A stretch of 25,700 bases of DNA from a virus, in IMG/VR virus record IMGVR_UViG_3300024264_000156, positions 1 to 25,700 of that record. One strand, written 5' to 3'. Both the position numbers and the translations under genes were made by a program. Each line of letters starts with the position of its first letter. Position 1 is the stretch's first letter. The notes beneath the pieces are model-generated. The model was not told the origin of the DNA. It saw only the letters and a program-made list of their open reading frames with translations, and searched no databases. This document shows, one piece after another, positions 147 through 17,411 of the stretch.

Positions 147-872
147 ATGAATATCTACGACATTGTTTCTGAAAACAGGAATCTTCCTTTAAAAGGAAAT
201 CCCGTAGCAAAAAACTTAAACAAATTTAATAAACCATCTACTCACACGGATCGTAAGAAAGAACTTAAGAAAGGTGAACGCAAGCATAAAGGTGCACCTA
301 TCGACGAAGCACCTGTAGGAGTACTAAAACAAATGGGTCGCAAACTTGGTGCTAAGGCGGCTGGTGCAGTAGGCATGAAGGGTACTGCTGCTGGTCTTGG
401 CGGCGCTGCTGAAACAGGTGATGTTGCTAGACAACTAAATGTAGATCTTAAAAAGTATGCTGGGCAAACTGGCATGAATCTAAAACAGTTAGACGCACAA
501 GATCTTGTTGCGTTTTTAAAATCAAAAGGTTTTCCTACTACACCACTTGCTAATGTAACTGGAGTACTTGCTCCTAAGCAGATTGATCAAGCTCTATTAA
601 AAGTAGCTCAAGAAAAAGCAAAGGTTGGTGGAGCCAAAGCAGGTACAGGAGTTGCTGGTAGCAACGCCGCAGGTGCTGCGCAAGCGGCTCAAGGAGGAGG
701 GGTTTTAGATAAGATACTACAAAAAACTAGCAAAGCTGGAGTATCTGGTGCCAGCCAAGCTAGAGGCAGTGCAGGTGCTGGTGCTAAACAAAATGCTTTA
801 CCAGCAGATATACAAGCACAATTAGATCAACTTACTCCTACAGAGAAAAAAGTACTAGGAGGTTTAATATAA
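147..872 (+). CDS. Ala/Gly/Lys-rich putative internal or structural virion protein
   Basis: The product has 241 residues and no family I can name with certainty. The N-terminus starts MNIYDIVSENRN and is followed by a strongly basic stretch (about residues 25-50, Lys/Arg-rich). Two Ala/Gly-rich segments (about 65-95 and 155-215) flank a more normal helical stretch that includes the motif LKQLDAQDLVAFLKSKGFP. The start is set by the ATG at 147, with AGGA just upstream and a late promoter 25 bases away. The stop overlaps the next ATG (TAATG), so the two genes are translationally coupled. Low-complexity Ala/Gly/Lys proteins under a late promoter in a structural region are often virion or packaged internal proteins, but that is inference. 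There is no signal peptide. Confidence 0.8.
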   Translation: MNIYDIVSENRNLPLKGNPVAKNLNKFNKPSTHTDRKKELKKGERKHKGAPIDEAPVGVLKQMGRKLGAKAAGAVGMKGTAAGLGGAAETGDVARQLNVDLKKYAGQTGMNLKQLDAQDLVAFLKSKGFPTTPLANVTGVLAPKQIDQALLKVAQEKAKVGGAKAGTGVAGSNAAGAAQAAQGGGVLDKILQKTSKAGVSGASQARGSAGAGAKQNALPADIQAQLDQLTPTEKKVLGGLI

Positions 873-2998
873 TGAAACTTCAAGAAGTAACAGCATACAA
901 CTTACGCTCTCAAACTATACTAAATGAAAGTTGGGAAACACTTACAGAAAATCAAAGAATATATGTTGGCAAATGGGAAAAAGAACTTTGGCCCTTGCTG
1001 GAAGAATATGTTCGTGTATGTGAAGCTGAGTTAAATCCAAACCAAATTAAAAGTATTTTTACCAGTGCTGAACAACAAGCAGCAGGACAAAAGACAGGTC
1101 TAGGCAAAGCAGCAGGCGCGGCGGGCGCAGCATTAAAGTTACCAGTAGAGCTTGCTAAAAAAGTTGATACAAAAGTCAATGAACTAGGTAAGCTGGCACA
1201 AAACGCAGGTCCTGTAAAAAATGCAGATGCTAAGTTTGCACAACTTAAGAAAGATATTACTGCAAACAACAGTGACAGCAAAATTGTACAAGGTGTACAA
1301 AAGATAAGCGACTGGGCAAAAGCCAATCCTGGTAAGGCTTCATTAGCAGTTGGTATTCTAACTACTATGGCAGCGTTTGCAGGTGGTCCTGCAGGCGGTG
1401 CAGCAGCAGGTTTAATTTTAAGGGCATCTAAAGATCTATTGCAAGGTGAAAAACTTTCAACAGCAGTTGGCAAATCAGTTAAAACAGCAGCATATGGTGC
1501 TCTTGCTGGTATGACATTTAAGTATATTTCCGATAACATTATTGATAACATTGCTTCTGCAGATGCAGCTGAATTTACTGATATGAAAGCAGGATTACGA
1601 GATGCAAACTATATAAATGCTAAGGCAGATGTACTGTCTGATATAGGACAGCCTGTAGATATTTTAGACAATGCTATGCGTTATCGTGCACAAGGTAATG
1701 TAAATTCGTTTTACTTTAGCTACGACACAGTAGTACCAGGTAATATGCAAGCACAGTTTGAAACTCTAGAAGGGGCATTAGAAGGTGTAAAAACTGGTAC
1801 TGAAGAATTTTACGCTGCGGCTGCTAAATTTCACGACTTCATGGGCGGCTTGCAAAATTCTACAGAAGCAAAAAATTTAACAGCAGCATGGGATGCTATT
1901 CAACAAATTCCTAAAGACGCACTTACTGCTGGTCAAACAGCAGAATTACTAGCACAGGCAAATTCAAGTGAAGCACTAATAAGTGCTATAGAAACTGCTG
2001 GCACTAGTGCAGCATCAGTTGTACAAGGTGCTTTAGCAACAGTAGATGATAATGCAAAAAAAGCCCAACAAGCAAAACCAATTGACCCTGAAGAAAAGAA
2101 AGAATTAGAAGCAGGAGCAGAAACAAAAGCAGAATCACTGACTATGGAGGAAAAGTACGAACTTTATCTTCAAGAAGGTCCATTAGCCGATAAGTTAAAA
2201 GGTGCAGCAAGTAAAGCAGCAGGAGCAGTAAAAGGAGCAGCAGGTAAAGCAGCAGGAGCTGTTAAACAAGCAGGTAAAGATATTACTCAGCAAGTTACTG
2301 CTAACAAATTAATGAAAGCATGGAAAGCAGCAGGCGAACCTACTGACACTGGATCTATTGTTAACATATTATCATCAGCTGGTGTAAGTGACGATCAAAT
2401 TGCTACAATAGGACAGGAACAAAAAGTAAAACTTCCTGCTCCTACTAAAGCACCACAAGCAGATAAAGCAGCAGCACCACAAGCAGATAAAGCAGCAGCA
2501 CCACAAGCAGATAAAGCAGCAGCACCACAAGCAGATAAAGCAGCAGCACCACAAGCAGGCGGCGAACAGCCTACAAGTGCTCCTACAGCTCAAAAAGGTG
2601 ACACTAAAAAAATTGGTGGAGCAACTTACCAATGGGAAGGCGCACTTTGGGTAGACACTGCAACAAATAAACCAGTTGGCATAGCAAACGCAATGGAAAT
2701 AGGATTAGGCAATCCTAAATTAGATCCTATCATTGCATTAGCTAAAAAAGATCCAGCATTAGCTAAACTTATTAAAGCACAAGTAACAGCTAAAGGTGTA
2801 AAAGCAGGAACATCTGCTGCTAAACAAGCAGCTGACGCAGGTGTAAAAGGCACAGAAGTAGTAAAAACAAAAGCCAACACAAAGGTATCAAAAGCACCAG
2901 CACCTAAGCCAGCAGCACCTAAAGCAAAGGCAGCACCTAAGCCGGCAGCACCTAAAGCAAAGGCAGCACCTAAGCCAGAATTAAGACTAGTAAAATAA
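872..2998 (+). CDS. Large Ala-rich putative virion/internal protein with repeats and hydrophobic segments
   Basis: The product has 708 residues and no firm family assignment. The first 75 residues are an ordinary helical domain (motif YVGKWEKELWPLLEEYVRVC). Two hydrophobic Ala/Gly-rich stretches follow (about 153-187 and 205-229) that could enter a membrane. A central helical region leads to a second Ala/Lys region, a short domain near 479-515 (motif TDTGSIVNILSSAG), four exact copies of APQADKAA (527-558), and a Lys/Pro/Ala tail with two 11-residue repeats (677-698). The start ATG overlaps the previous stop. Late-promoter control, low complexity and membrane-like segments would fit a protein packaged in the virion and ejected with DNA, but a purely structural role is equally possible. 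It converges with the - strand frameshift ORF, with one base between the stops. Confidence 0.8.
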   Translation: MKLQEVTAYNLRSQTILNESWETLTENQRIYVGKWEKELWPLLEEYVRVCEAELNPNQIKSIFTSAEQQAAGQKTGLGKAAGAAGAALKLPVELAKKVDTKVNELGKLAQNAGPVKNADAKFAQLKKDITANNSDSKIVQGVQKISDWAKANPGKASLAVGILTTMAAFAGGPAGGAAAGLILRASKDLLQGEKLSTAVGKSVKTAAYGALAGMTFKYISDNIIDNIASADAAEFTDMKAGLRDANYINAKADVLSDIGQPVDILDNAMRYRAQGNVNSFYFSYDTVVPGNMQAQFETLEGALEGVKTGTEEFYAAAAKFHDFMGGLQNSTEAKNLTAAWDAIQQIPKDALTAGQTAELLAQANSSEALISAIETAGTSAASVVQGALATVDDNAKKAQQAKPIDPEEKKELEAGAETKAESLTMEEKYELYLQEGPLADKLKGAASKAAGAVKGAAGKAAGAVKQAGKDITQQVTANKLMKAWKAAGEPTDTGSIVNILSSAGVSDDQIATIGQEQKVKLPAPTKAPQADKAAAPQADKAAAPQADKAAAPQADKAAAPQAGGEQPTSAPTAQKGDTKKIGGATYQWEGALWVDTATNKPVGIANAMEIGLGNPKLDPIIALAKKDPALAKLIKAQVTAKGVKAGTSAAKQAADAGVKGTEVVKTKANTKVSKAPAPKPAAPKAKAAPKPAAPKAKAAPKPELRLVK
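2450..2557 (+). repeat. 24-bp in-frame tandem repeat (APQADKAA x4.5)
   Basis: Four identical 24-base units encode APQADKAA (2450-2545), followed by a half unit for APQA (2546-2557). Identity at the DNA level, including synonymous positions, points to recent expansion by slippage or recombination. Copy number may vary between related phages. Confidence 0.95.
2900..2977 (+). repeat. 33-bp in-frame tandem repeat in Lys/Pro/Ala tail
   Basis: Two 33-base units (2900-2932 and 2933-2965) encode APKPAAPKAKA. They differ at one synonymous position (CCA versus CCG), and a partial third unit (APKP) follows. This forms the basic, flexible C-terminal tail of the 872-2998 product. Confidence 0.9.
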
Positions 2999-2999
2999 T

Positions 3000-3230
3000 T
3001 TAAAAGAAAGGCAAGCCTGACTTCTTAGTTGTTTCTATATTTTCTTTGATAAGAGTGGCACAGATTTCTCTATCTTCAGGACCCATAACATAAATCTCAT
3101 CGATTGATACTGACCCTCTCATGTACCAGCATATTTTCATAAGTTCGAGTTTGAACTGTTTGACTTCCTTTTCTAGGACCTTAACTTCTTCTAAAATTTT
3201 GTCAACCGGCCAGGCTAAGATCCTTACGCG
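3000..3230 (-). CDS. Predicted -1 frameshift extension of the gp26-like protein (tail-assembly-chaperone-like)
   Basis: This open frame fills the apparent gap after the gp26-like gene. Read from the slippery site it gives 76 residues (RVRILAWPVDKILEEV at the start) with a helical stretch and a well-formed C-terminal domain (motifs ICWYMRGSVSIDEI and ETTKKSGLPFF), ending at TAA (3002-3000). It has no ATG, GTG or TTG upstream of the conserved-looking part. The first in-frame ATG would remove the N-terminal third, and the frame is closed by TGA shortly upstream inside the gp26-like gene. It lies in the -1 frame and overlaps the gp26-like stop. The simplest reading is ribosomal frameshifting at T TTT TTC (3236-3230), which would give a fusion of about 362 residues. 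The alternative is a separate gene with a rare start such as ATC at 3221. Confidence 0.7.
   Translation of the reverse strand, partial: RVRILAWPVDKILEEVKVLEKEVKQFKLELMKICWYMRGSVSIDEIYVMGPEDREICATLIKENIETTKKSGLPFF
3002..3018 (-). terminator. Possible weak terminator at end of - strand unit
   Basis: In the - strand transcript AGG-CTTG-CCT (3018-3009) can form a 3-bp stem with a CUUG tetraloop, followed by TTCTTTTA. The stem is short and lies inside the last codons of the frameshift extension, so this is only a suggestion. No better terminator separates the convergent units. Confidence 0.25.
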
Positions 3231-3236
3231 AAAAAA
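3176..3236 (-). promoter_or_regulatory. Programmed -1 frameshift signal (slippery heptamer plus stem)
   Basis: On the - strand the gp26-like frame reads CAT TTT TTC GCG TAA. The heptamer T TTT TTC (3236-3230) matches X XXY YYZ in the correct phase. Six bases downstream GGATCTT (3223-3217) can pair with AAGGTCC (3182-3176) to make a 7-bp stem with one G-U pair. Inside the loop AGCC/GGTT can form a second small stem. The spacer length suits known -1 frameshift stimulators. The heptamer is seen directly, while the structure and its use are inference. Confidence 0.65.
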
Positions 3237-4087
3237 TGTGATTGGTCAAACGTTATAGGTACACTAAATTCTTTTGGAGCACCCTTTGCAATATCTTCGT
3301 CGTCTAACTCAACACGCAACGGTTTAATTGCAAATTTTTTCTTTTGCTCTTCGATGTGATTAGTTAGTGCTTTATAGAATTTTTTGTCAGCATTTTCAAT
3401 AAATTCTTTTATTTGATGGGGATTACTTACTACATTATCGCCTACTGCAATTGAAACAATGCTGCTAATAATCATTCCTACAGTGAGCTCTGTTAACTTT
3501 TTAAAACTAACATTAAATTTTGCAAGTTTTTCTTCTTCAGTTAATCCGTCATCATTGACTAAACTAAAGACTCGTTGCTCTTCAAAAGTTTTAAGTGCAC
3601 TTTGTGTAAATTCTTTATATGTTAACGGTCGTAAATTGATAGTTAACTCGTCTAGATAAACTGCATCTTCAAATTGTGCAGTAAGTAACCCTTCTAAAAT
3701 TGTTCTTAGATCAACTTGAAAGTCTCTATCTTCTTCTATGCCAGGGATAGTAGTTCCAATATTCATCATTTCACCATATGTAGCAATGCGTATTGCTATA
3801 AGAGCTGCGTCTAAATCTAAACTAGGCATTAGCCATGCATTCTTAATAGCCGGTATACAACTTTGTATTACGTCAACTGTTGATTGTCCGTTTATAAGAG
3901 CATCTGGTGTTTTAAATGACAGTTCGTCTTTAGCAGTCATTGAAAACACAGGATATTCGCCTGTTTCGGATATGTCTATAGCATCGTCCGGGTAAAATTT
4001 TCCTTGGCTAGGAAGTGTGAGATAAAGTTTAGGCTGTCTATAAAACGCCTTTAGCGGGTTAGCACCGGGTGCAGTAATTTCTGGCAT
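3224..4087 (-). CDS. 26: gp26-like baseplate hub / tail assembly protein (PF12322-like)
   Basis: The product has 287 residues. The N-terminal motif LPSQGKFYPDD, then a Gly/Tyr turn, SMTAKDELSFKTPDAL and VIQSCIPAI, matches the pattern I know for the T4 gp26/gp51 family (T4_baseplate, PF12322). T4 gp26 is a hub protein needed for baseplate assembly. T4 gp26 is about 208 residues, so this one is longer. The start at 4087 is chosen because GGAGAAAAAC precedes the ATG and a late promoter lies upstream. The open frame continues to 4696 only as antisense of the divergent gene. It is the only - strand gene in the window, and its 3' end carries the frameshift signal. Position beside a tape-measure-like gene suggests a tail assembly chaperone role. 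Family call by motif only. Confidence 0.75.
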   Translation of the reverse strand: MPEITAPGANPLKAFYRQPKLYLTLPSQGKFYPDDAIDISETGEYPVFSMTAKDELSFKTPDALINGQSTVDVIQSCIPAIKNAWLMPSLDLDAALIAIRIATYGEMMNIGTTIPGIEEDRDFQVDLRTILEGLLTAQFEDAVYLDELTINLRPLTYKEFTQSALKTFEEQRVFSLVNDDGLTEEEKLAKFNVSFKKLTELTVGMIISSIVSIAVGDNVVSNPHQIKEFIENADKKFYKALTNHIEEQKKKFAIKPLRVELDDEDIAKGAPKEFSVPITFDQSHFFA

Positions 4088-7684: not shown

Positions 7685-9427
7685 ATGAGTTGGAAAAAGT
7701 ACTTTAACCCTGTTCCAACAGGGGATAACCCGAGCGGAAATTACTCACCCATGGGAGGTCCTCGCAGCGGAAATAATCCGGGTCCTGCACGTTCTAATTA
7801 CTCATCGTATTTGCCAGATGTGTATGTGGGATCACCAAATCGTGTAGAAAGATACGGCCAATACAACACAATGGATTTAGATTCAGAAGTAAATGCTGCC
7901 CTTGATATATTAGGTGAATTTTGTTCTCAAAAAAATGAACAAAATGAAACACCCTTTATTACTAGTTTCAAATCAAAGGCAACTAATACAGAAATAACAA
8001 TTATACAACAGTACCTACAGCAGTGGTGCAAATTGCAAGAGTTCGAAACTAAAATGTTTCGTATTTTACGCAATACATTTAAATATGGCGATACATTTTT
8101 TGTAAAAGATCCAGAAACTAAGCGTTGGTTTTATGTCGATCCTGCAAACGTAACACGCATTATTGTAAACGAAAGTGAAGGTAAAAAGCCTGAACAGTAT
8201 GTTATTAAAAACTTTAATTTAAATTTTGCAGACGGTGTTGCAACTACACCTTATGAAACAAACGGAAATATCACTGGCGGCGGCAGCGGACATTTAACTG
8301 GCGGCGTTCGCGGAATGGTAGGACAACCTCAGCAGTCAATGTCGGGCAGTAGGTTTATGACAGAAGAACGCGAAGTTGCTATTGATGCAGAACATGTTAT
8401 ACATTTAAGTTTATCTGAAGGATTAGACAGCAATTACCCGTTTGGTAATTCATTATTAGAAACTATATTCAAAGTCTACAAGCAAAAAGAATTGCTCGAA
8501 GACGCAATTATTATCTATCGTGTGCAGCGAGCTCCTGAACGTAGAGTGTTTTATGTAGACGTTGGTAATATGCCAAGTCACTTGGCAATGCAGTTTGTCG
8601 AAAGGGTAAAAACTGAGATACATCAGAGACGCATACCGAGTTCGACAGGAGGTGGCACGAATGTCATAGACAGTTCCTACAATCCGTTGAGCATCAACGA
8701 AGACTACTTCTTCCCGCAAACTGCTGAAGGGAGAGGATCAAAAGTTGAAACACTGCCAGGCGGCACTAACCTAGGTGAAATTGACGACTTACGTTATTTT
8801 ACTAACAAGCTAGTACGCGGTCTCCGAATTCCTTCATCATACCTTCCTACTGGAGCGGACGACAGTGCTAGTCAATATAATGACGGTAGAGTAGGCACTG
8901 CTTACATTCAAGAGCTACGATTCAACAAATATTGCGAACGTTTACAAAATTTGTTAACTAGAGATTTTGATCAAGAGTTTAAACGCTACTTACTTGAAAA
9001 GGGTGTAAACATTGACACAGCAATGTTTGATCTTAAATTTCAACCACCGCAAAACTTTGCAAGTTATCGTCAAGCAGAAATTGACAATGCTCGTGTACCA
9101 ACATACACACAAATGAGTGCTATTCCTTATATTTCAAATCGCTTTGCAATGAAACGTTTCCTAGGAATGTCCGACGAAGAACTTGCTGAAAATGAACGTT
9201 TGTGGCGAGAAGAAAATGAGGAAACTCTTACTCCAGCACCTGATGATGCTGCTGGCGAATTACGCGGCGCTGGCATAAGCGGTGCCGGTATAGAAGCCGA
9301 CATAAGTGACATGGAAACAGAAGCCCCAGGAGAAGCAGCACCAGTTGATGGCGGCGAAGGTGCTCCGCCTGATACTACTACAGGAGCAGACATCGGTGCA
9401 GGCGCTGCTACTGAGCAACCTGTATAA
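7685..9427 (+). CDS. 20: Portal vertex protein of head (T4 gp20-like)
   Basis: The product has 580 residues (T4 gp20 is 524). It forms the dodecameric portal that starts prohead assembly and is the DNA channel for packaging and ejection. The Gly/Pro/Asn-rich N-terminus is followed by the diagnostic MDLDSEVNAALDILGEFC (about 62-79). Later family blocks include YRVQRAPERRVFYVDVG, YFFPQTAEGRGSKVETLPGG, and GLRIPSSYLPTG with DDSASQYNDGRVG. The last 60 residues are an acidic Gly/Ala/Pro-rich tail, probably disordered. The start ATG follows AGGATAAAAT, 11 bases after the previous stop. The stop TAA lies inside the late promoter core at 9423. Confident call by family motifs. Confidence 0.95.
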   Translation: MSWKKYFNPVPTGDNPSGNYSPMGGPRSGNNPGPARSNYSSYLPDVYVGSPNRVERYGQYNTMDLDSEVNAALDILGEFCSQKNEQNETPFITSFKSKATNTEITIIQQYLQQWCKLQEFETKMFRILRNTFKYGDTFFVKDPETKRWFYVDPANVTRIIVNESEGKKPEQYVIKNFNLNFADGVATTPYETNGNITGGGSGHLTGGVRGMVGQPQQSMSGSRFMTEEREVAIDAEHVIHLSLSEGLDSNYPFGNSLLETIFKVYKQKELLEDAIIIYRVQRAPERRVFYVDVGNMPSHLAMQFVERVKTEIHQRRIPSSTGGGTNVIDSSYNPLSINEDYFFPQTAEGRGSKVETLPGGTNLGEIDDLRYFTNKLVRGLRIPSSYLPTGADDSASQYNDGRVGTAYIQELRFNKYCERLQNLLTRDFDQEFKRYLLEKGVNIDTAMFDLKFQPPQNFASYRQAEIDNARVPTYTQMSAIPYISNRFAMKRFLGMSDEELAENERLWREENEETLTPAPDDAAGELRGAGISGAGIEADISDMETEAPGEAAPVDGGEGAPPDTTTGADIGAGAATEQPV

Positions 9428-9430
9428 ATA
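9423..9430 (+). promoter_or_regulatory. Late promoter overlapping the gp20 stop codon
   Basis: TATAAATA followed by CT. The gp20 stop codon TAA (9425-9427) is part of the element. The next ATG is only 5 bases downstream (9436), so a transcript starting at the usual late-promoter distance would begin at or near that codon. It may mainly serve the gene at 9680, or give a leaderless message. Confidence 0.5.
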
Positions 9431-9435
9431 CTATT

Positions 9436-9675
9436 ATGATATTACGTGAGCTATTTTATTTCGACAAAGAAACAGTTGAACCTATAGAAGACTATAGTTA
9501 TGAACCAGAATACGACGACAGTCCTGTAGAGTTTTCTGATACACGTAAAACTAAACTTTCTCTTAGACAAATTAATCGTGCTCGTAAAGCTAGCGAACTA
9601 CACAAGAAAGAACAGGTTAAAGAACTAGACTTTGTTCGTCAAATGTACGGGATACCATCTGAACCAGAGGTATAA
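9436..9675 (+). CDS. Small conserved-type protein between gp20 and prohead genes
   Basis: The product has 79 residues, beginning MILRELFYFDKETVEP. An acidic N-terminal half (Glu/Asp/Tyr-rich, 14-35) is followed by a basic helical half (DTRKTKLSLRQINRARK), ending GIPSEPEV. T4 has the small prohead core protein gp67 (80 residues) at this position. Length and location agree, but I see no decisive sequence likeness, so the link is positional only. No Shine-Dalgarno sequence is visible before the ATG, which sits directly after a late promoter core. Translation may depend on coupling to gp20, whose stop is 8 bases upstream. Confidence 0.75.
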   Translation: MILRELFYFDKETVEPIEDYSYEPEYDDSPVEFSDTRKTKLSLRQINRARKASELHKKEQVKELDFVRQMYGIPSEPEV

Positions 9676-9679
9676 TGTT

Positions 9680-10507
9680 TTGTCAAAAATAGATAAGTCC
9701 CAACTATCAAAATCTGAATGGCACAAACTACGAGAACTTCGTAGAACAGAAAAAGAATTAATAAAAAAAGAAAAGCTTAAAGAAAGTAAGAAGTTAGCAC
9801 AAGCTTTAGGAACTCCTTCGCAAAAAAAAAATGTTCCTGACGAAATCCCGCAAACAAAAGTACAAAAAATAACAAAAACAAACTCTGCAATAATCTCCCC
9901 AGTTAAAAGTAACGGCGTAGCATTTGTGCTTGGGAACGGTACTAGTAGATCAGCCATTGAACCAGAATGGCTTAGACCTTACGGTAAAATCTATGGTTGT
10001 AATGCGTTGTATAGATCATTTGACCCAGACTATCTAATAGCTGTTGACGTAAAAATGATGTTAGAAATAAACAAAGCTGCATACCAACAAAAAAACCCTA
10101 ACGTATGGACCAACCCGAATAGATCCTATTCTAAATTTAAAGGATTTAATTATTTTAATCCAGCAAAAGGGTGGAGTAGCGGACCTACTGCATTATGGTT
10201 AGCTAGTCAGCATACTTATGAAACTATCTATATTTTAGGATTTGATTACAGAGGACTGTCCGAAGGACAAAAAGTTAATAACATTTACGCAGATACTCCT
10301 AACTATAAAAAATCTTCAGACAGTGCAACGTTTTTTGGTAATTGGCTGCGTCAAACTGCGTCTACAATGCAAAAACACACAGGAATTAACTATGTTAGAG
10401 TAATAGCACCAGATAACTATAGTCCTCCAGAGCTAAATAAAATTGAAAACTATAGCTCGATCACTATTGATGAGTTTCAAATACAATTCGGTTTCCCACC
10501 AAAATAG
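9680..10507 (+). CDS. Putative sialyltransferase/DUF115-like protein
   Basis: The product has 275 residues from a TTG start. The N-terminal 70 residues are a charged helix (KLRELRRTEKELIKKEK). The rest resembles a Rossmann-type domain. It begins VAFVLGNGTSRSAI (about 82-95), then YGKIYGCNALYRSF and PDYLIAVDVKM, and later YETIYILGFDYRG (about 180-192). The GNGxS start, the N-[AQ]-L/F-Y block and the IYxxGxD block match in order what I know of GT42 sialyltransferases (Campylobacter CstII) and DUF115-type proteins. No function in T4-like phages is known to me. The TTG at 9680 is chosen because AGAGGT lies 8 bases upstream. The ATG at 9632 would overlap the previous gene by 44 bases and has no such site. 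A hairpin terminator follows. Confidence 0.7.
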   Translation: MSKIDKSQLSKSEWHKLRELRRTEKELIKKEKLKESKKLAQALGTPSQKKNVPDEIPQTKVQKITKTNSAIISPVKSNGVAFVLGNGTSRSAIEPEWLRPYGKIYGCNALYRSFDPDYLIAVDVKMMLEINKAAYQQKNPNVWTNPNRSYSKFKGFNYFNPAKGWSSGPTALWLASQHTYETIYILGFDYRGLSEGQKVNNIYADTPNYKKSSDSATFFGNWLRQTASTMQKHTGINYVRVIAPDNYSPPELNKIENYSSITIDEFQIQFGFPPK

Positions 10508-10535
10508 GCAAAAAGTATCGTTTTTGCCCCCTTTT
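10507..10535 (+). terminator. Hairpin terminator after the portal unit
   Basis: GGCAAAAA (10507-10514) pairs perfectly with TTTTTGCC (10521-10528) around GTATCG. A short CCCCTTTT follows, so the T-run is weak. It starts in the stop codon of the preceding gene and lies just before the promoter of the head unit. This supports a transcription boundary. Confidence 0.6.
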
Positions 10536-10556
10536 CGTATATAATCTAAACATATA

Positions 10557-10564
10557 TATAAATA
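10557..10564 (+). promoter_or_regulatory. Late promoter for prohead/capsid unit
   Basis: TATAAATA, 51 bases before the ATG at 10616. It opens the unit of the acidic core protein, gp21, gp22 and gp23, which ends at the terminator at 14513-14544. A TATAAT hexamer lies just upstream (10540-10545), without a -35 box at the right distance. Confidence 0.75.
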
Positions 10565-10615
10565 ATAATGACAGCCTTACCATAGGTAACCAATCATTTA
10601 TAGGAGAATTTAAAA

Positions 10616-11557
10616 ATGGCTAATAAATTTGAAGAAATGCTAGAGCGTCTCATTAACGAGGACCGTGATGGCGCAGAAGAATTATTTCATGAGATTGTTG
10701 TAGAGAAGTCACGCGACATATACGAGTCACTACTTGAAAATGATCTTGAAGAAGAAGAAGTTGAAGAAGCAGAAAAATGCGACGACGACGAAGAAGTTGA
10801 TGAAGCAACAGACGAAGAAGTTGATGAGTCAGACGAAGACCTAGACGAAGCTACTAACGAAGACGACGACGAAGAAGTTGAAGAAGGTTTTGACCTAGAC
10901 GAGTTTGAAGTTGAAGCTGACCCAATGGACGACATGGGCGGAGATCCTGCAGATGATATGATGGGTGACATCGAAGCAGATGCAGACGACGAAGATAAAG
11001 GCGATGACGAAGAAATAGAAGACAGAGTTGTTGACCTAGAAGACGCACTAGACGACCTAAAAGCAGAATTTGAAAAAATGATGTCTGACGATGATGGCGA
11101 AGAAGAGCCAGAAATGGACATGGACATGGACATGGATGACGAAGGCGACGATGATGATGAAGCTGAAGAAGCATTTCAATTCGAAGCTGAAGACGAAGAC
11201 GAAGAAACAGAAGAGTCTGCTGCTCCAAAAACTGATACTGAGCAGATGCGTGAATACGTAGAAAAAATTGCAGGTGGACACGGCGCTGAGTCAAAAGGCA
11301 AAGCTGAAACTGCTGACAACAAAACTTCTCCAGTAGCAGGTGCTAATGATATGGGCGGTGACGCTAGCAACTTAGTACAAGGCGGAGAAGAAACTGGCGG
11401 AAAAGCTGATTCTGCTAAAGAAGAAAATGCTGGTAATGTAAATGTACCAGGTGGCAAAGCTGGAAAATCAATGAAAGCTATGCCAAAAGGCCACGGCGCT
11501 GAAAAGAAAGGCGCAGGCGAAACTGCTGCTAATAAGAAATCAACACTTGGCAGTTAA
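10616..11557 (+). CDS. Highly acidic prohead core protein (T4 gp68-like position)
   Basis: The product has 313 residues. The N-terminal 45 are a helical domain (EELFHEIVVEKSRDIYESLL), whose layout recalls T4 gp68. Residues about 46-215 are almost entirely Asp/Glu with a Met-Asp repeat (MDMDMDMDD, encoded by ATGGAC repeats at 11114-11137). The C-terminal 95 are Gly/Lys/Asn-rich and contain two related blocks, GHGAESKGKAET and GHGAEKKGAGET. T4 has the core proteins gp67 and gp68 between gp20 and gp21, and acidic core proteins fill the prohead before DNA entry. The role is inferred from position, the N-terminal likeness and composition. T4 gp68 is only about 141 residues. The start has AGGAG 10 bases upstream. 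Confidence 0.75.
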   Translation: MANKFEEMLERLINEDRDGAEELFHEIVVEKSRDIYESLLENDLEEEEVEEAEKCDDDEEVDEATDEEVDESDEDLDEATNEDDDEEVEEGFDLDEFEVEADPMDDMGGDPADDMMGDIEADADDEDKGDDEEIEDRVVDLEDALDDLKAEFEKMMSDDDGEEEPEMDMDMDMDDEGDDDDEAEEAFQFEAEDEDEETEESAAPKTDTEQMREYVEKIAGGHGAESKGKAETADNKTSPVAGANDMGGDASNLVQGGEETGGKADSAKEENAGNVNVPGGKAGKSMKAMPKGHGAEKKGAGETAANKKSTLGS

Positions 11558-11572
11558 TTAAGGGAAGTTTGA

Positions 11573-12199
11573 ATGAGTAATTTTTTAAGAGAGCATTTGA
11601 CGTTCGACAGAGCTCAGATAGTTATAGAAAATGCTAACGAAGGCAAAGACCTTTATATGAAAGGTATTTGCATACAAGGAGGCGTCCGCAACGCTAATCA
11701 GCGAGTGTATCCTGTAAATGAAATAGGCAGGGCTGTCAAAACTCTCAATGATCAGATAAGCGGAGGATACAGTGTTCTCGGAGAAGTTGATCATCCAGAC
11801 GGACTTAATATCAATATAGATCGTGTAAGCCATATGATTACAGAAATGTGGATGGATGGCGATAACGGTTACGGAAAGTTGAAAGTTTTACCAACCCCTA
11901 TGGGGCAACTAGTTAAAACGATGCTTGAGGCAGGCGTTAAATTAGGTGTTTCATCTAGGGGTTCAGGTAATGTTAGCGAAAGCGGCAACGGCGAAGTAAG
12001 TGATTTTGAAATCATTACTGTAGACGTTGTTGCCCAACCCAGTGCTCCGGGGGCGTATCCTACGCCGATCTACGAGCATCTAATGAATGCCCGTGGGGGG
12101 TATAAGGCATACGAACTAGCACAGGCAACAAAACACGACGATAAGGCACAGAAATATCTTAAGGAATCGCTGATTAATATAATCAGCAAGCTCCGATAA
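11573..12199 (+). CDS. 21: Prohead core protein protease (T4 gp21-like)
   Basis: The product has 208 residues, close to the family length. It is a serine protease that sits in the prohead core and cleaves scaffold and capsid proteins before packaging. The catalytic His lies in LGEVDHPDG (His74) and the catalytic Ser in LGVSSRGSG (Ser127 or Ser128), matching HPP and GVSSRG in T4 gp21. The family block VDVVAQPSAPGAYPTPI follows (150-166). The C-terminal 35 residues are helical and charged. It lies 15 bases after the acidic core gene and 14 before gp22. Start ATG at 11573 with GGGAAG upstream. Confidence 0.95.
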   Translation: MSNFLREHLTFDRAQIVIENANEGKDLYMKGICIQGGVRNANQRVYPVNEIGRAVKTLNDQISGGYSVLGEVDHPDGLNINIDRVSHMITEMWMDGDNGYGKLKVLPTPMGQLVKTMLEAGVKLGVSSRGSGNVSESGNGEVSDFEIITVDVVAQPSAPGAYPTPIYEHLMNARGGYKAYELAQATKHDDKAQKYLKESLINIISKLR

Positions 12200-12213
12200 C
12201 GAAGGAGAAAAAT

Positions 12214-13317
12214 ATGTTGGATGCACTAAAAACACTTTTTGAGAATGATGTAGTTTCTGGAGAAGTACGTGCTGAAATTGAAGAAGCATGGAACGCAAAG
12301 ATCAAAGAGAATAAACAGCAAGTAACTGCTGAGCTCCGCGAAGAATTTGCACAAAAGTACGAACACGACAAGTCAACAATGGTTGAAGCCATTGATTTAC
12401 TTGTTTCTGAGCAACTTCAATCAGAAATTGCTGAGTTTGCAGAGGACCGCAAACAACTAGCAGAAGCAAAAGCAAAATATGCAGTAGCAATGCGTGAAAA
12501 CGCAGACCTAATGAAGAATTTTGTTCTTGATCAACTAGGCAATGAAATTTCTGAACTACATGAAGACCAAAAAGCAGTAGCAGGCAAGTTTGCACAGCTT
12601 GAGGAATTTGTTGTAGAAGCACTTGCAAAAGAAATTGCAGAATTTTATGATGATAAGAAAGATTTAGCAGAAACAAAAGTACGTTTAGTACGTGAAGCTA
12701 AAGAACATTTTGTTAAAGTTAAAACAAACTTTATTCAAAAGAGTGCTGCACTAGTGTCTGAAACAGTTGAAAAGACTCTTAACAGAGAAATTGGTCAATT
12801 GCAAGAAGACATTGAAGAAGCACGTAGAAATGATTTTGGAAGAAAATTATTTGAAGCATTTGCAACTGAATATTCAAATAGCTATCTAAACGAAAAATCA
12901 GAAACAGCCAAACTTTTAAAAGTTGTTGCAACAAAAGATGCACAACTAGCAGAAGCAAAAACATTTGCAGTTAAGGCTAAGCAATTAGCAGAAGCTCAGA
13001 CAACTGAGAAGAAGCGTTTAGTTGAAGCAGCAGAAAGAAAAGATGTAATGAACGAGCTTATTGCACCACTAAGCAACAAGCAACGTGAAATTATGATAGA
13101 TTTACTGGAATCAGTACAGACAGACCGTTTGCAAAAACAGTTTGAAAAATATCTACCGGCAGTAATAGAAGACGGTAAAACTCCAGCAAAGCGAAAGGCA
13201 GCAATTACAGAAGGCAAAGAAATCACAGGCAACAGAGAAACACAAACAGTTAGTAGTAAGGCAGACGACAACAATGTAGTAGATATCCGTCGTTTAGCTG
13301 GAATTGGATTAAATTAA
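12214..13317 (+). CDS. 22: Prohead scaffold protein (T4 gp22-like)
   Basis: The product has 367 residues (T4 gp22 is about 269), nearly all charged alpha helix. It is the main scaffold that shapes the prohead and is degraded by gp21. About four related helical units are visible, each around the pattern L-x-x-E-I-x-E-x-x-x-D (near residues 68, 108, 138 and 189). The gp21-type recognition triplet LAE occurs four times (ending at Glu84, Glu153, Glu247 and Glu260), besides IAE and LVE. The C-terminus ends in NNVVDIRRLAGIGLN, which would contact the shell in T4. It starts after a strong GAAGGAG and lies between gp21 and gp23 as in T4. Confidence 0.9.
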   Translation: MLDALKTLFENDVVSGEVRAEIEEAWNAKIKENKQQVTAELREEFAQKYEHDKSTMVEAIDLLVSEQLQSEIAEFAEDRKQLAEAKAKYAVAMRENADLMKNFVLDQLGNEISELHEDQKAVAGKFAQLEEFVVEALAKEIAEFYDDKKDLAETKVRLVREAKEHFVKVKTNFIQKSAALVSETVEKTLNREIGQLQEDIEEARRNDFGRKLFEAFATEYSNSYLNEKSETAKLLKVVATKDAQLAEAKTFAVKAKQLAEAQTTEKKRLVEAAERKDVMNELIAPLSNKQREIMIDLLESVQTDRLQKQFEKYLPAVIEDGKTPAKRKAAITEGKEITGNRETQTVSSKADDNNVVDIRRLAGIGLN

Positions 13318-13327
13318 GGAGAAAATT

Positions 13328-14491
13328 ATGTCAGAACTACTAGAAAGTCGCTGGCAGGAGACCAAGAGTGCCCTTCTTGAAGGCCTACAAGGAAACAAGA
13401 AATCAGTAATGGCTGCAACACTTGAAAATACTAAGCAGTATCTTTCAGAAGCAGCTACTTCGGGTGCCACATCTGCCGGTAACGTAGCAACTTTAAACAG
13501 AGTAATTTTACCAGTTATTCGTCGTGTAATGCCAACGGTTATTGCAAACGAATTAGTTGGTGTACAACCAATGACTGGACCAGTTGGACAGATTCACACA
13601 TTGCGTGTTCGTTACGCAGATGCTGGAGAGTTTGCTGCTGGAACAGAAGCATTGAGCCCATTTGAAATTGCTCAAGGCTATTCAGCTAATTCTGCAAGCG
13701 GAACTGCAAAAGCTGCTGCTACAGCTGCTCTTGAAGGCCAAGCTGGTAAGAAGTTAAGCATTCAAATATTGAAGCAAACAGTCGAAGCTAAAACTCGTAA
13801 GCTCAGCGCACGTTGGACTTTTGAGTCAGCTCAAGACGCACAATCACAGCACGGTATTGATATCGAAGCTGAAATCATGGCAGCTCTTGCACAAGAGATC
13901 ACTGCTGAGATTGACCAAGAAGTATTAGGCAGCTTACGTTCGCTAGCTACTACTTCTGAAACGTACGACCAAGCTGCGGTATCAGGTACTGCTACATTTG
14001 TTGGTGACGAGCATGCTGCATTAGCTGTTCAAATCAACCGTGTTGCTAACTTGATTGCACAGCGTACACGTCGTGGTGCTGGTAACTGGGCAGTTGTTTC
14101 GCCATTCGCGTTAACAATTCTTCAGTCAGCAACTACTTCAGCGTTTGCTCGTACAACTGAAGGTACGTTTGAAGCTCCAACTAACACTAAGATGGTTGGT
14201 ACCTTAAACAACGCTATGCGTGTATACGTTGACAGCTATGCTGGCGATGACGCAGTAGTACTTGTTGGTTACAAAGGTTCAAGCGAATCAGATGCAGCAG
14301 CATTCTACTGCCCATATATTCCATTAATGAGCAGCGGTGTTGTACTAGATCCAGCAACATTCGAGCCAGTCGTATCATTTATGACACGTTATGGTTACGT
14401 TGAGCTTTCTAACACTGCATCATCTTTAGGTAACGCAGGTGATTACTTAGGAGCAGTTGGCATTACAGACGGTAATGTAAGCTTCTCTTAA
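13328..14491 (+). CDS. 23: Major capsid protein (T4 gp23-like)
   Basis: The product has 387 residues, with the HK97-type fold expected of the family. Family blocks are VILPVIRRVMPTVIANELVG with PMTGPVG (about 58-85), YADAGEF, AKTRKLSARWTFESAQD (near 155-172), EITAEIDQEVL, and RTRRGAGNWAVVSPFALTIL (near 238-258). The N-terminal 41 residues are helical and end in the gp21-type site YLSE, followed by AATSG, so cleavage after Glu41 would leave about 346 residues. T4 gp23 has 521 residues, so this protein is short and probably lacks the T4 insertion domain. It has a strong AAGGAG site and is the last gene of the unit, directly before a strong terminator. Confidence 0.95.
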   Translation: MSELLESRWQETKSALLEGLQGNKKSVMAATLENTKQYLSEAATSGATSAGNVATLNRVILPVIRRVMPTVIANELVGVQPMTGPVGQIHTLRVRYADAGEFAAGTEALSPFEIAQGYSANSASGTAKAAATAALEGQAGKKLSIQILKQTVEAKTRKLSARWTFESAQDAQSQHGIDIEAEIMAALAQEITAEIDQEVLGSLRSLATTSETYDQAAVSGTATFVGDEHAALAVQINRVANLIAQRTRRGAGNWAVVSPFALTILQSATTSAFARTTEGTFEAPTNTKMVGTLNNAMRVYVDSYAGDDAVVLVGYKGSSESDAAAFYCPYIPLMSSGVVLDPATFEPVVSFMTRYGYVELSNTASSLGNAGDYLGAVGITDGNVSFS

Positions 14492-14512
14492 TTGTTACAT
14501 TAAAAAGCAATA

Positions 14513-14544
14513 AAAAAAATAGGACCTTCGGGTCCTATTTTTTT
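14513..14544 (+). terminator. Strong intrinsic terminator after gp23
   Basis: AAAAAAATAGGACC (14513-14526), loop TTCG, GGTCCTATTTTTTT (14531-14544). The 14-bp perfect stem with a UUCG tetraloop ends in seven T. The flanking A-run makes it symmetric, so it could also stop transcription on the other strand. Confidence 0.95.
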
Positions 14545-14560
14545 ATCTATAACTTTTTTT

Positions 14561-14568
14561 GATAAATA
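14561..14568 (+). promoter_or_regulatory. Late promoter variant for the appendage unit
   Basis: GATAAATA followed by CT, 17 bases after the gp23 terminator and 81 bases before the ATG at 14650. It shares ATAAATACT with the elements at 9423, 17385 and 22623. The first base differs from the T4 consensus. Confidence 0.65.
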
Positions 14569-14580
14569 CTTGTGTCTAAT

Positions 14581-14619
14581 AGCGAGCCGCAAGGCGGACT
14601 TATGCGGGCCCACCGCGTA
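14581..14619 (+). promoter_or_regulatory. GC-rich structured 5' leader
   Basis: In the leader between promoter and ATG, 28 of 40 bases (14581-14620) are G or C, in otherwise AT-rich DNA. Two hairpins can form: GCC-GCAA-GGC (14586-14595, GNRA-type loop) and TATGCGG-GCCCA-CCGCGTA (14601-14619, 7 bp with one G-T). An open GGAG site follows at 14639. The role is unknown. It could stabilise the message or be a regulatory fold. I do not recognise a known riboswitch. Confidence 0.5.
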
Positions 14620-14649
14620 GACCTAGAACGTCAAATAAGGAGAAAAACA

Positions 14650-15099
14650 ATGGGAAGACCAATTAATAAAAGATACTTCGGCAGACTAGCCGATGCAGAC
14701 GATGCACGTTTTGCACCGTTAAATGATACTTTTTTCAACATTGCTATCAATGTGCAAATTAGAGCAGAAGCCGAAACTGAATCAGGCTTGATACTACAAC
14801 AGCGCAGTCCTAATAAGTTTGTTGTTAACGATTTGAAAACCGGTACTGCTGTAAATGCAGATGGCACACAGCGTGACGGCACAGCAGGTACAGGGAATGT
14901 AGATACTTGTACATTAGTAGACAAAGCAGCAGGAGCACTGGGTGCTAACGAAATGTCTATTATGGGAACTACACCAACTGGCCAGGTAAGAATTAAAAAA
15001 CTATATAACAGAACTTGTAGAGACTTTGACAACAATCGTTATAAGTGGGTTACAGAAGATGACTCAACAGAAACTGTATTACGTCTAACAGCGATCTAA
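14650..15099 (+). CDS. Putative virion structural protein downstream of gp23
   Basis: The product has 149 residues, beginning MGRPINKRYFGRLAD. It is beta-rich and Thr/Gly-rich in the middle, with a basic motif RIKKLYNRTCRDF near the C-terminus. I recognise the opening MGRPINKRYFG as a type found in marine T4-like phages but know no function. The ATG at 14650 is chosen over the in-frame GTG at 14572 because AGGAGAAAAACA lies directly before it and the earlier start would place coding sequence in the structured leader. It is the first gene after a late promoter and has a 12-base gap to the next gene. Confidence 0.8.
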   Translation: MGRPINKRYFGRLADADDARFAPLNDTFFNIAINVQIRAEAETESGLILQQRSPNKFVVNDLKTGTAVNADGTQRDGTAGTGNVDTCTLVDKAAGALGANEMSIMGTTPTGQVRIKKLYNRTCRDFDNNRYKWVTEDDSTETVLRLTAI

Positions 15100-15111
15100 C
15101 AGGACTTATAA

Positions 15112-16149
15112 ATGTCAAAGTTTCTAAACGTACCATACGGAGACTATGTAATTACAGTTCAAGACGGAGGAGCTATCCGTCTTGATACTGGCCTTTCAAA
15201 CGGTGAAGTAATAGTTACTGGCGATTTAACTGTATTAGGTGAAACTACAACTGTTAACACAACTACGTTAACAGTCGAAGACAACATTATTACAGTAAAT
15301 TCTCTTGCCGGAGCAGTTAACGAAGCTGGTATAGAAGTAGCAAGAGACAGTAAAGTTACACAAAAATTTGTTTTTGATGAAACAATTAATTATACTAGTC
15401 CTACACTAGGTGCAATAAGTGGAGCTTGGCATCTAAAAGATGAAAATGACGATTTAGCAGGTATACGTACTAATGTAATTGATACTGCCGGCGGAGATCT
15501 TTATTTAATAAACAGTGGACAAGGTGTAGTTAGTGTTACTGAAACTAATAACTACGAGTACGGAGTTTTTAATTATACTTCTGCTAATACTATTAATGTC
15601 TTAGATCCGTTTGGAGATACTGGAGCATTTACAACTCCAAGAACACCAGACGATGATAATATACCCAACGGTAGAGCAGTAGCTGACTTTATCACTTCGT
15701 ATTTTGCTACAGTATTCTATGATAAAATTTCAGAAGGCTCCAATAGTCTTACCTATGTGGAAACTAAGGATTTTGAAATTACAGGAGAACTTAGTAGAGT
15801 AGAAGTCGGAATAGACAATCAATTAGTTGCAGAGTTTTATAATGACAGACTTGACGTTTTTAATTTAAGATTACAAGATTCTACATTATCCGCAACAGAT
15901 TCAGGGCAAGACTTGGTATTAATGTCTCCAGGAACTGGAAGCGTAAGAATAAACGATACACTGCATATTGATGCTACACCTACATTTGAGGATGCTACAT
16001 TAGATCCTAGTTTACCAACCGGCGGCATAAAACTTTATAGTAAAACTCCAGGTTATGGTGATACTGGACTTTATTTCGCTAATAGTGCAAGTAGGACCGA
16101 CGAAGTAATAAGTAACAACAAAGCATTAATTTATAGTATGTTGTTTTAG
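15112..16149 (+). CDS. Tail fibre-like structural protein
   Basis: The product has 345 residues. The N-terminal block NGEVIVTGDLTVLGETTTVN, then TTLTVEDNIITVNS (about 29-65), is a typical phage fibre stalk motif that forms short beta strands in trimers. A similar VTGDLTV pattern recurs in the two large fibre genes downstream. The rest is beta-rich with IPNGRAVADFI (about 182) and GGIKLYSKTPGYGDTGLYF (about 304-322). The C-terminus has no S74 chaperone signature. The start has AGGACTTATAA before the ATG. It probably forms part of a fibre or a fibre-attachment protein. Confidence 0.75.
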   Translation: MSKFLNVPYGDYVITVQDGGAIRLDTGLSNGEVIVTGDLTVLGETTTVNTTTLTVEDNIITVNSLAGAVNEAGIEVARDSKVTQKFVFDETINYTSPTLGAISGAWHLKDENDDLAGIRTNVIDTAGGDLYLINSGQGVVSVTETNNYEYGVFNYTSANTINVLDPFGDTGAFTTPRTPDDDNIPNGRAVADFITSYFATVFYDKISEGSNSLTYVETKDFEITGELSRVEVGIDNQLVAEFYNDRLDVFNLRLQDSTLSATDSGQDLVLMSPGTGSVRINDTLHIDATPTFEDATLDPSLPTGGIKLYSKTPGYGDTGLYFANSASRTDEVISNNKALIYSMLF

Positions 16150-16159
16150 GAAAAATTAA

Positions 16160-16531
16160 ATGGCACTTGAATACGCAATTATAACTGACGATAGTACTCC
16201 TACAACACTGCTAACAGTACCGGCAGAAAAAGAGTATGCTATTACTACTATGATTGTATGCAATACAACACTACCGGATCCTGAAGATCCAACAGCAGGA
16301 ACAGCATACTTTGATATGCATCTTGTCCCGCAAAGTAGCGATCCTGTAGGAGATGTAATACCTCCTCTAGAAACACAAGTAATAAAAGATTTGTATCTAG
16401 AAGCAGGAGAAACATTTACTTTTGATTCAGAGAAACTAGTTTTAGGTCCTGAAGATAAAATTGTTTTTGTAAGTTATTCTGTAGCAGGCGGTGGAAGTCT
16501 AAGTGCAACCGTAAGTTATTTGGAAATATAA
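16160..16531 (+). CDS. Small beta-rich virion protein, paralogue 1
   Basis: The product has 123 residues, beta-rich, with LLTVPAEKEYAITTMIVCNT, YFDMHLVP, AGETFTFDSEKLVL and a final SATVSYLEI. The neighbouring gene at 16533 encodes the same blocks in the same order, so the pair arose by tandem duplication. The function is unknown. Size and beta content fit a small appendage, decoration or fibre-adaptor protein. An AGGAAAAATTAA site precedes the ATG, 10 bases after the previous stop. Confidence 0.75.
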   Translation: MALEYAIITDDSTPTTLLTVPAEKEYAITTMIVCNTTLPDPEDPTAGTAYFDMHLVPQSSDPVGDVIPPLETQVIKDLYLEAGETFTFDSEKLVLGPEDKIVFVSYSVAGGGSLSATVSYLEI

Positions 16532-16532
16532 A

Positions 16533-16868
16533 ATGGCAATAGCAAACGCATTAATATCAGGAGCAAAAGTATTACTTACTGTACCAGCAGGAAAGCGATA
16601 CGCTATAACTACAATTATGGTTTGTAATACAGTAACGCCGGAGTCTGTTGACAGTGACGGCGGCGTATCAGATTTTGACATGCATTTTATAAAAAGTGGC
16701 GACTCTAGAAGTGATGCAAATACTATTGTAAGAGCTTTAGAGTTACCAGCAGGCGAAACATTTACATTTGATAGTGAAAAAATAGTAATTGAGGCAGGCG
16801 ATACTATAGAACTAGTAGGCAGTTCTCCAGAAGTTCTTGTTGCAACTGTAAGTTATATGGAAGTATAA
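16533..16868 (+). CDS. Small beta-rich virion protein, paralogue 2
   Basis: The product has 111 residues. It matches the upstream gene product block by block: LLTVPAGKRYAITTIMVCNT, DFDMHFIKS, PAGETFTFDSEKIVIEAGD and VATVSYMEV. The region between the first two blocks differs in length and sequence. The stop of paralogue 1 and this ATG are one base apart, and the next gene is also one base away, so the three are probably translated together. The function is unknown and likely structural. Confidence 0.75.
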   Translation: MAIANALISGAKVLLTVPAGKRYAITTIMVCNTVTPESVDSDGGVSDFDMHFIKSGDSRSDANTIVRALELPAGETFTFDSEKIVIEAGDTIELVGSSPEVLVATVSYMEV

Positions 16869-16869
16869 A

Positions 16870-17379
16870 ATGAGGCTTATAAAAAGACAAACAACAAATT
16901 TAAGAAACATCAACGGCAAAGGTGTTCAGTACGATACTAAAGATCAAGTAATTCTTGACTCTTCAGTAGGTGTATTAATGCCCAAAGGAACAACCTCAGA
17001 AAGACCCACTACTCCAACTGAAGGATATATTAGGTACAACACTACATCAAATGAATTCGAAGGTTATCAAGACGGCGCCTGGAGAAAGATTAGATATAAA
17101 GAACCAAATAGAAATCCAGGCATAATAAAACAAACGTTTGGTCCAGGAGATGACATAGAAGTATATTTTGGCACTCTGGACAGTGGCGACACAGATTATC
17201 CAGTACCAGAAAGTGCAGATAGTATTATTGTTTTAGTTGAAAATGTAATTCAAATATCAACAACTAACTTTGTTCTCGAGCAAAACCCCGTCGGAAAGCC
17301 AGCAGGATGGTATATAAAATTCTTAACTCCGGTTCCAACTGGTAAGTTAGTCACTGTCCTTCACAACTTCGATAAGTAA
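16870..17379 (+). CDS. Fibre-associated structural protein with RYNT/EGY motif
   Basis: The product has 169 residues. The central block ERPTTPTEGYIRYNTTSNEF, followed by EGYQDGAW (about residues 45-73), is a recurrent phage fibre motif. It also appears in the C-terminal part of the 1729-residue fibre as RPNAVEGEIRYNT and GDIRYNNEFSLFQGY. The remaining 95 residues are beta-rich with IKQTFGPGDDIEVYFGTLD and a C-terminal TPVPTGKLVTVLHNFDK. It may adapt or terminate the fibre encoded next to it. This is inference from the shared motif and position. Confidence 0.75.
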   Translation: MRLIKRQTTNLRNINGKGVQYDTKDQVILDSSVGVLMPKGTTSERPTTPTEGYIRYNTTSNEFEGYQDGAWRKIRYKEPNRNPGIIKQTFGPGDDIEVYFGTLDSGDTDYPVPESADSIIVLVENVIQISTTNFVLEQNPVGKPAGWYIKFLTPVPTGKLVTVLHNFDK

Positions 17380-17384
17380 AATTC

Positions 17385-17392
17385 AATAAATA
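17385..17392 (+). promoter_or_regulatory. Late promoter variant before the large fibre gene
   Basis: AATAAATA followed by CT, 18 bases before the ATG at 17411. The first base differs from the T4 consensus, but ATAAATACT agrees with the other elements of this window. The predicted start of transcription falls close to the GGGGA ribosome-binding site. Confidence 0.55.
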
Positions 17393-17411
17393 CTGTATGG
17401 GGAATACAGTA
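17391..17411 (+). promoter_or_regulatory. Hairpin with ribosome-binding site in its loop
   Basis: TACTGTAT (17391-17398) and ATACAGTA (17404-17411) are perfect reverse complements around GGGGA. The loop is the ribosome-binding site and the last base of the stem is the A of the ATG. Only read-through transcripts contain the whole stem. Transcripts from the promoter at 17385 would start inside it. Confidence 0.6.

Follow-up and report, generated by a model that had tools for sequence, protein, structure and literature searches.

The window, by which we mean the whole 25.7-kb stretch of viral DNA analysed here, contains a T4-like structural module on the plus strand (7685-22600), in which the portal protein gp20 (7685-9427), the head protease (11573-12199), the major head protein (13328-14491) and the baseplate wedge (17411-22600) were recognised. 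On the minus strand, positions 3224..4087 hold a gp26-like gene, an ORF that runs from ATG 4087 to TAA 3226-3224 and encodes a short, TAC-N-like product of 287 residues ending in ...QSHFFA. Its neighbours are a divergent gene for a 1168-aa virion protein and a convergent ORF of 708 aa (872-2998, plus strand), which has a repeat-rich 3' end and for which no PHROG or Pfam match was found.

The 287-residue protein matches Pfam family PF12322 (T4_baseplate, the T4 gp26 family) with E=7.6e-11 and 42.5 bits against a cut-off of 24.5, and it also matches phrog_150, 'baseplate hub', with E=1.4e-11. The first-pass annotation had called the product gp26-like from its sequence, and the Pfam match bears this out. 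The AlphaFold2 model of the protein (pLDDT 87.8) resembles predicted T4-like baseplate hub assembly proteins in a structure search of BFVD. Among solved structures, no match was found with E <0.001 or with a VIA-align Z >=8, a result that does not in itself make the fold new; HSP90 matches to the gp26 profile (E 0.014) were judged to be due to chance.

The same BFVD search also returned uncharacterised proteins of about 500 aa from the Ralstonia phages RSF1 and RP12, Erwinia phage Special G and Klebsiella phage Eowyn, with TMq ~0.5; judging from the models, it is possible that these are unrecognised chaperone relatives in jumbo phages. The window protein carries the motifs TTIPGIEED and LRVELDDED and has none of the cysteine pairs, CPxC and CxxC, that are frequent among its relatives, which, at the level of sequence comparison, suggests the loss of a zinc site.

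A slippery heptamer and an open -1 frame

In the zero frame the gp26-like ORF ends CAT TTT TTC GCG TAA. The heptamer T_TTT_TTC occupies 3236-3230 (3230..3236, minus strand) in the zero-frame phase, and a single codon, GCG, separates it from the TAA at 3224..3226, where the short product terminates. Between TGA 3248-3246 and TAA 3002-3000 the -1 frame is free of stop codons. The C-terminal extension that it encodes (3000..3236, minus strand; FFRVRIL...KKSGLPFF) comprises 78 codons including both slipped Phe codons, 76 beyond them, and is closed by TAA; one base, 2999, parts this stop from that of the convergent plus-strand ORF, which ends at 2998. The earliest start codon at or after the slip in the -1 frame is an ATG at residue 33, before which no Shine-Dalgarno-like sequence was found. 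The in-phase heptamer, the 76-residue open frame with no usable start of its own and its end one base before the convergent gene had all been noticed in the first-pass annotation, and each was confirmed. The gene therefore presents the arrangement by which a candidate -1 programmed frameshift is recognised, namely a heptamer of the X_XXY_YYZ type, in phase at the 3' end of the gene, and a -1 frame that stays open past the stop.

Within the window this arrangement is rare. Among the 44 ORFs of at least 100 codons, two have an X_XXY_YYZ heptamer within reach of a -1 frame, and the gp26-like ORF is the only one in which the heptamer is combined with a -1 frame that runs for at least 70 codons without a stop; because one ORF in 44 qualifies, and because 247 homologous haplotypes keep the heptamer, the arrangement is better than expected by chance. 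The tryptic peptide predicted across the slip junction in the window is EFSVPITFDQSHFFR.

Conservation of the heptamer and selection on the extension

The extension was searched against IMG/VR, yielding 102 relatives, and the best 80 of the 102 loci were kept. In every locus analysed an upstream ORF, of about 290 codons where complete, has the extension in its -1 frame, and TTTTTTCG stands at the junction in 74 of the 74 distinct stretches found in this way. As FFR had itself served to locate the junction in these stretches, sets retrieved by gp26 alone constitute a fairer test. Fourteen cultured jumbo phages picked by gp26 similarity (Atu_ph07, Phosso, PA5oct, 121Q, RaK2, XaC1, BF, CBB, Vibrio 2.275.O, SCTP-2, XacN1, RAS14, Munch and XbC2) all have the heptamer and, beyond it, a -1 frame similar in length; the heptamer reads T_TTT_TTT in XacN1 and RAS14 and T_TTT_TTC in the other 12. 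Queries with gp26 alone also returned 82 distinct loci of cyanophage type and phiAS5 type, the phiAS5 query (L114) contributing four loci only, and all 82 carry T_TTT_TTC exactly 9 nt before the stop. With a profile of window-type gp26 together with a Cygsa01 query, the heptamer was found in 88 of 89 loci, the exception (L300) being a disrupted ORF. The heptamer is also present in YB07 and S-CAM9.

When uncultured marine phages, cultured jumbo phages, cyanophages and the Aeromonas T4-like group are pooled, 247 distinct haplotypes result, which correspond to 113 gp26 clusters at 70% identity and to 24 at 50%; T_TTT_TTC is present in 245 of them and T_TTT_TTT in two, and a T never precedes the run. 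Since this pool was collected as carriers of T6 or FFR, it is the unbiased gp26-only counts that carry weight.

These homologues, including the sets retrieved by gp26 alone, support the programmed -1 frameshift that the first-pass annotation had predicted: in the window lineage, cultured jumbo phages, cyanophages and the phiAS5 group alike, a gp26-like gene with the heptamer is continued by the extension in the -1 frame. The prediction had been said to fail if homologues existed as genes with their own start, or if related phages had lost the heptamer and kept both frames. Such cases do exist, in distant relatives only: Cygsa01, CBA120 (Ackermannviridae) and Vibrio D532 have both parts but lack T6, and gp51 of the T4 type is a separate gene. 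CBA120 and Vibrio D532 have a shorter run, TTTTC, at the junction, and in Cygsa01 the extension is likewise in the -1 frame with TTTTC only at the junction. These three phages may slip on a weaker site or may use another mechanism, for example re-initiation.

The extension is under strong purifying selection in the clade of the window. Between the window and its nearest relative (L003), dN is 0.088 and dS 1.34 for the extension (dN/dS ~0.07), against dN 0.33 and dS 1.41 for gp26 (dN/dS 0.23), the faster evolving of the two proteins. Over eleven relatives, changes at positions 1, 2 and 3 of the -1 frame codons are in the ratio 266:136:420. Elsewhere in these genes Phe is encoded 498 times by TTT and 138 times by TTC, and TTT-TTC makes up 2 of the 16 other Phe-Phe pairs, so that codon preference does not account for the fixed TTT-TTC at the junction. 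An alignment of 61 extension sequences has invariant F1, F2, R3, W37, R40 and N66. The model of the extension is all-helical (pLDDT 86.7); a BFVD fold search with it gave nothing below E = 1, and no PHROG match was found for the window extension.

Proposed mechanism, alternatives and stimulatory elements

Taking these sequence data together, we are confident that two proteins are made from a single start of this gene, the longer one by a -1 slip, and that they probably form a tail-assembly chaperone pair. The frameshift is very probable; the chaperone role is probable, being drawn from homology with T4 gp26 (short form) and gp51 (long form) and from the analogy with lambda G/GT. Most ribosomes would end at TAA 3224 and release the 287-residue gp26-like protein. 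A fraction of them would slip back one base on T_TTT_TTC, where both tRNA-Phe could re-pair with UUU, and would go on to make a long protein of about 362 residues, composed of the first 286 residues of the short form and of 76 from the -1 frame, the latter as an all-helical C-terminal domain. The short form would coat the tape-measure protein, and the long form would recruit tail-tube subunits via its C-terminal domain. Slippage, its rate and the chaperone role are what we infer from the features that are directly supported: the sequence, its conservation, the selection acting on it and the homology of the short form.

It has to be considered whether the extension is instead a separate small gene, expressed by re-initiation or from an internal start. 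Public records annotate it in this manner, listing the downstream ORF separately as a hypothetical protein or as 'gp51', and in Cygsa01 that ORF starts with an ATG that overlaps the stop of gp26 (TAATG). In the window, however, a product begun at the first start, the ATG at residue 33 with no Shine-Dalgarno-like sequence, would contain neither the conserved FFR nor the greater part of the long helix. Moreover, conservation sets in with the heptamer, and T6C is maintained although the protein would be the same with synonymous Phe codons. Independent initiation of the extension was rejected for the window, as no suitable start codon is present there, and we regard the separate gene as improbable.

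Slightly less probable again is transcriptional slippage on the T6 run, by which the long form would be translated from altered mRNA in a mixed population. A homopolymer run does lie exactly at the frame junction, but runs prone to transcriptional slippage are usually longer than six, and here the run consists of six T in all haplotypes except XacN1 and RAS14 (seven), with no T before it and a C after it in 245 of 247, a pattern that suits tandem tRNA slippage. That the open -1 frame is the product of chance, of an assembly error or of a decayed gene is hardly credible, because the arrangement is repeated in complete cultured genomes and in 247 haplotypes that come from unrelated samples, and the -1 frame is under purifying selection.

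As regards elements that could stimulate the predicted ribosomal slip, a candidate downstream hairpin was found at 3175..3224 (minus strand): in the MFE fold, 3224-3214 pairs with 3185-3175 in an 11-bp stem that starts 5 nt past the heptamer. The stem had been described earlier as one of 7 bp, 6 bases after the heptamer, and this description has to be replaced; its energy is, moreover, unremarkable (z = -0.42), and conservation across 18 relatives is lacking. Although the 11-bp stem does better than slid controls, it is broken in ~31% of cells and is partly kept in the closest relatives only. RNAalifold found no consensus structure among 18 relatives, and on these two grounds a conserved RNA structure was rejected as the stimulator.

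An upstream Shine-Dalgarno-like sequence is a frameshift stimulator known in bacteria. In cyanophages, pairing between the anti-Shine-Dalgarno sequence and the 16 nt that precede the slip has a mean of -6.8 kcal/mol, and it is -5 kcal/mol or stronger in 85% of cases versus 8% of control stretches from the same genes; the strength of this pairing is due to a conserved GAGGG, about 10 nt upstream of the slip. A strong element of this type was not found in the clade of the window, where pairing is hardly above that of the controls, or in cultured jumbo phages, and the window's own 16 nt upstream of the slip show no Shine-Dalgarno-like signal.

Relation to T4 gp26 and gp51 and to other chaperones

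Frameshifted tail chaperones were reportedly described for lambda, as G/GT, by Xu, Hendrix and Duda in 2004 and for P2, as E/E+E', by Christie and co-workers in 2002. In both systems ribosomes that slip back one base close to the 3' end of a short tail gene produce a minor, longer form that carries a C-terminal domain. The window gene, with a predicted -1 slip near its 3' end that would add a C-terminal domain, appears analogous to them, although the lambda slip sequence, G_GGA_AAG, differs from T_TTT_TTC. A lambda-type chaperone gene lies just upstream of the tape-measure gene; beside the gp26-like gene no tape-measure gene was recognised in the window, which is a fragment, and in T4 gp51 is parted from gp29 by two genes.

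T4 gp26 and gp51 both belong to PF12322 (8.8e-64 and 3.9e-52, respectively), the family spanning residues 1-201 of 249 in gp51, and by this measure of sequence similarity they are paralogues. Both are classed as hub assembly chaperones; gp51 is required for assembly and does not form part of the finished particle (PMC3004832). Family phrog_634, 'baseplate hub assembly catalyst', is matched both by the -1 extension of cyanophage S-BM1 (4e-31) and by residues 147-246 of T4 gp51 (1e-23). In profile comparisons with gp51, the cyanophage extension reaches 95% probability (E=2e-8) and the window-type extension 56% (E=1e-4), which is a weak match; no sequence relative of T4 gp51 was found in the PDB. 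The window gene and the T4 genes have in common the PF12322 family and the capacity to encode a short and a long form, a capacity that is conserved among the homologues of the window gene, and the in-frame tail of gp51 resembles the -1 extension, though only weakly that of the window type; they differ in that T4 has two duplicated genes for the two forms, whereas the window has one gene and a predicted -1 shift. Kyanoviridae, with gp26 and a small ORF 'gp51' (phrog_634), have the same heptamer as the window and an extension homologous to T4 gp51, but differ from it in their upstream Shine-Dalgarno-like stimulator. The window extension is also longer than those of cyanophages (78 vs ~60-70 residues).

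The kind of system described here is already known. According to the papers that cite it, the work of Vladimirov, Gautam and Davidson (Virology 2022;566:9-15) concerns the tail-assembly chaperones TAC-N and TAC-NC of T4-like phages. The PRFect paper (PMC10885494) cites it for T4-like phages in which a short and a long chaperone gene replace frameshifting, and the Adele paper (PMC12846349), which itself reports that Vandenendeviridae use a GTTTTT motif for a -1 frameshift, cites it for poly-T slip signals in T4-like TAC-N genes. The first-pass annotation, which knew of no frameshift described for the gp26 family, is thus superseded on this point, insofar as the citing papers credit both the T4-like chaperones and their poly-T slip sites to that study. 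As the central idea is published for T4-like phages, the surprise is limited; no report for jumbo or marine lineages was found in the open-access literature, which is weak evidence of absence, and the breadth across these lineages, together with a T4 two-gene form that looks derived, may be new.

A tree of 49 PF12322 proteins, rooted at the midpoint and including some long branches, unites T4-type gp26 and gp51 in a single clade (99/94), whose sister is the frameshifting phiAS5 group (96/88); the frameshifting cyanophages and the jumbo and marine phages fall outside this grouping. We lean towards a scenario in which a single frameshifted gp26-51 gene was ancestral in the wider T4-like group and has persisted in jumbo phages, cyanophages and uncultured marine phages, and in which duplication split genes 26 and 51 only in the T4/Straboviridae line; the clade of the window would then be a branch that slips without the upstream Shine-Dalgarno stimulator. 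Owing to the midpoint rooting and the long branches, the replacement of an ancestral frameshift by the T4 duplication is likely rather than shown.

In most of the jumbo phage and cyanophage records examined, the C-terminal half either appears as a protein of its own, called hypothetical or 'gp51' and begun at an internal codon, or is left unannotated, and the predicted long chaperone is consequently missing from databases. For example, cyanophage and Aeromonas phage records (L113, 1854-2752; L112; L114) have a gap after gp26 and a downstream ORF begun at an internal codon. Recognition of the slip site would correct these annotations and extend the logic of lambda G/GT to many T4-like and jumbo phages, and T4 genes 26 and 51 would provide a natural case in which duplication seems to have replaced a recoding event.
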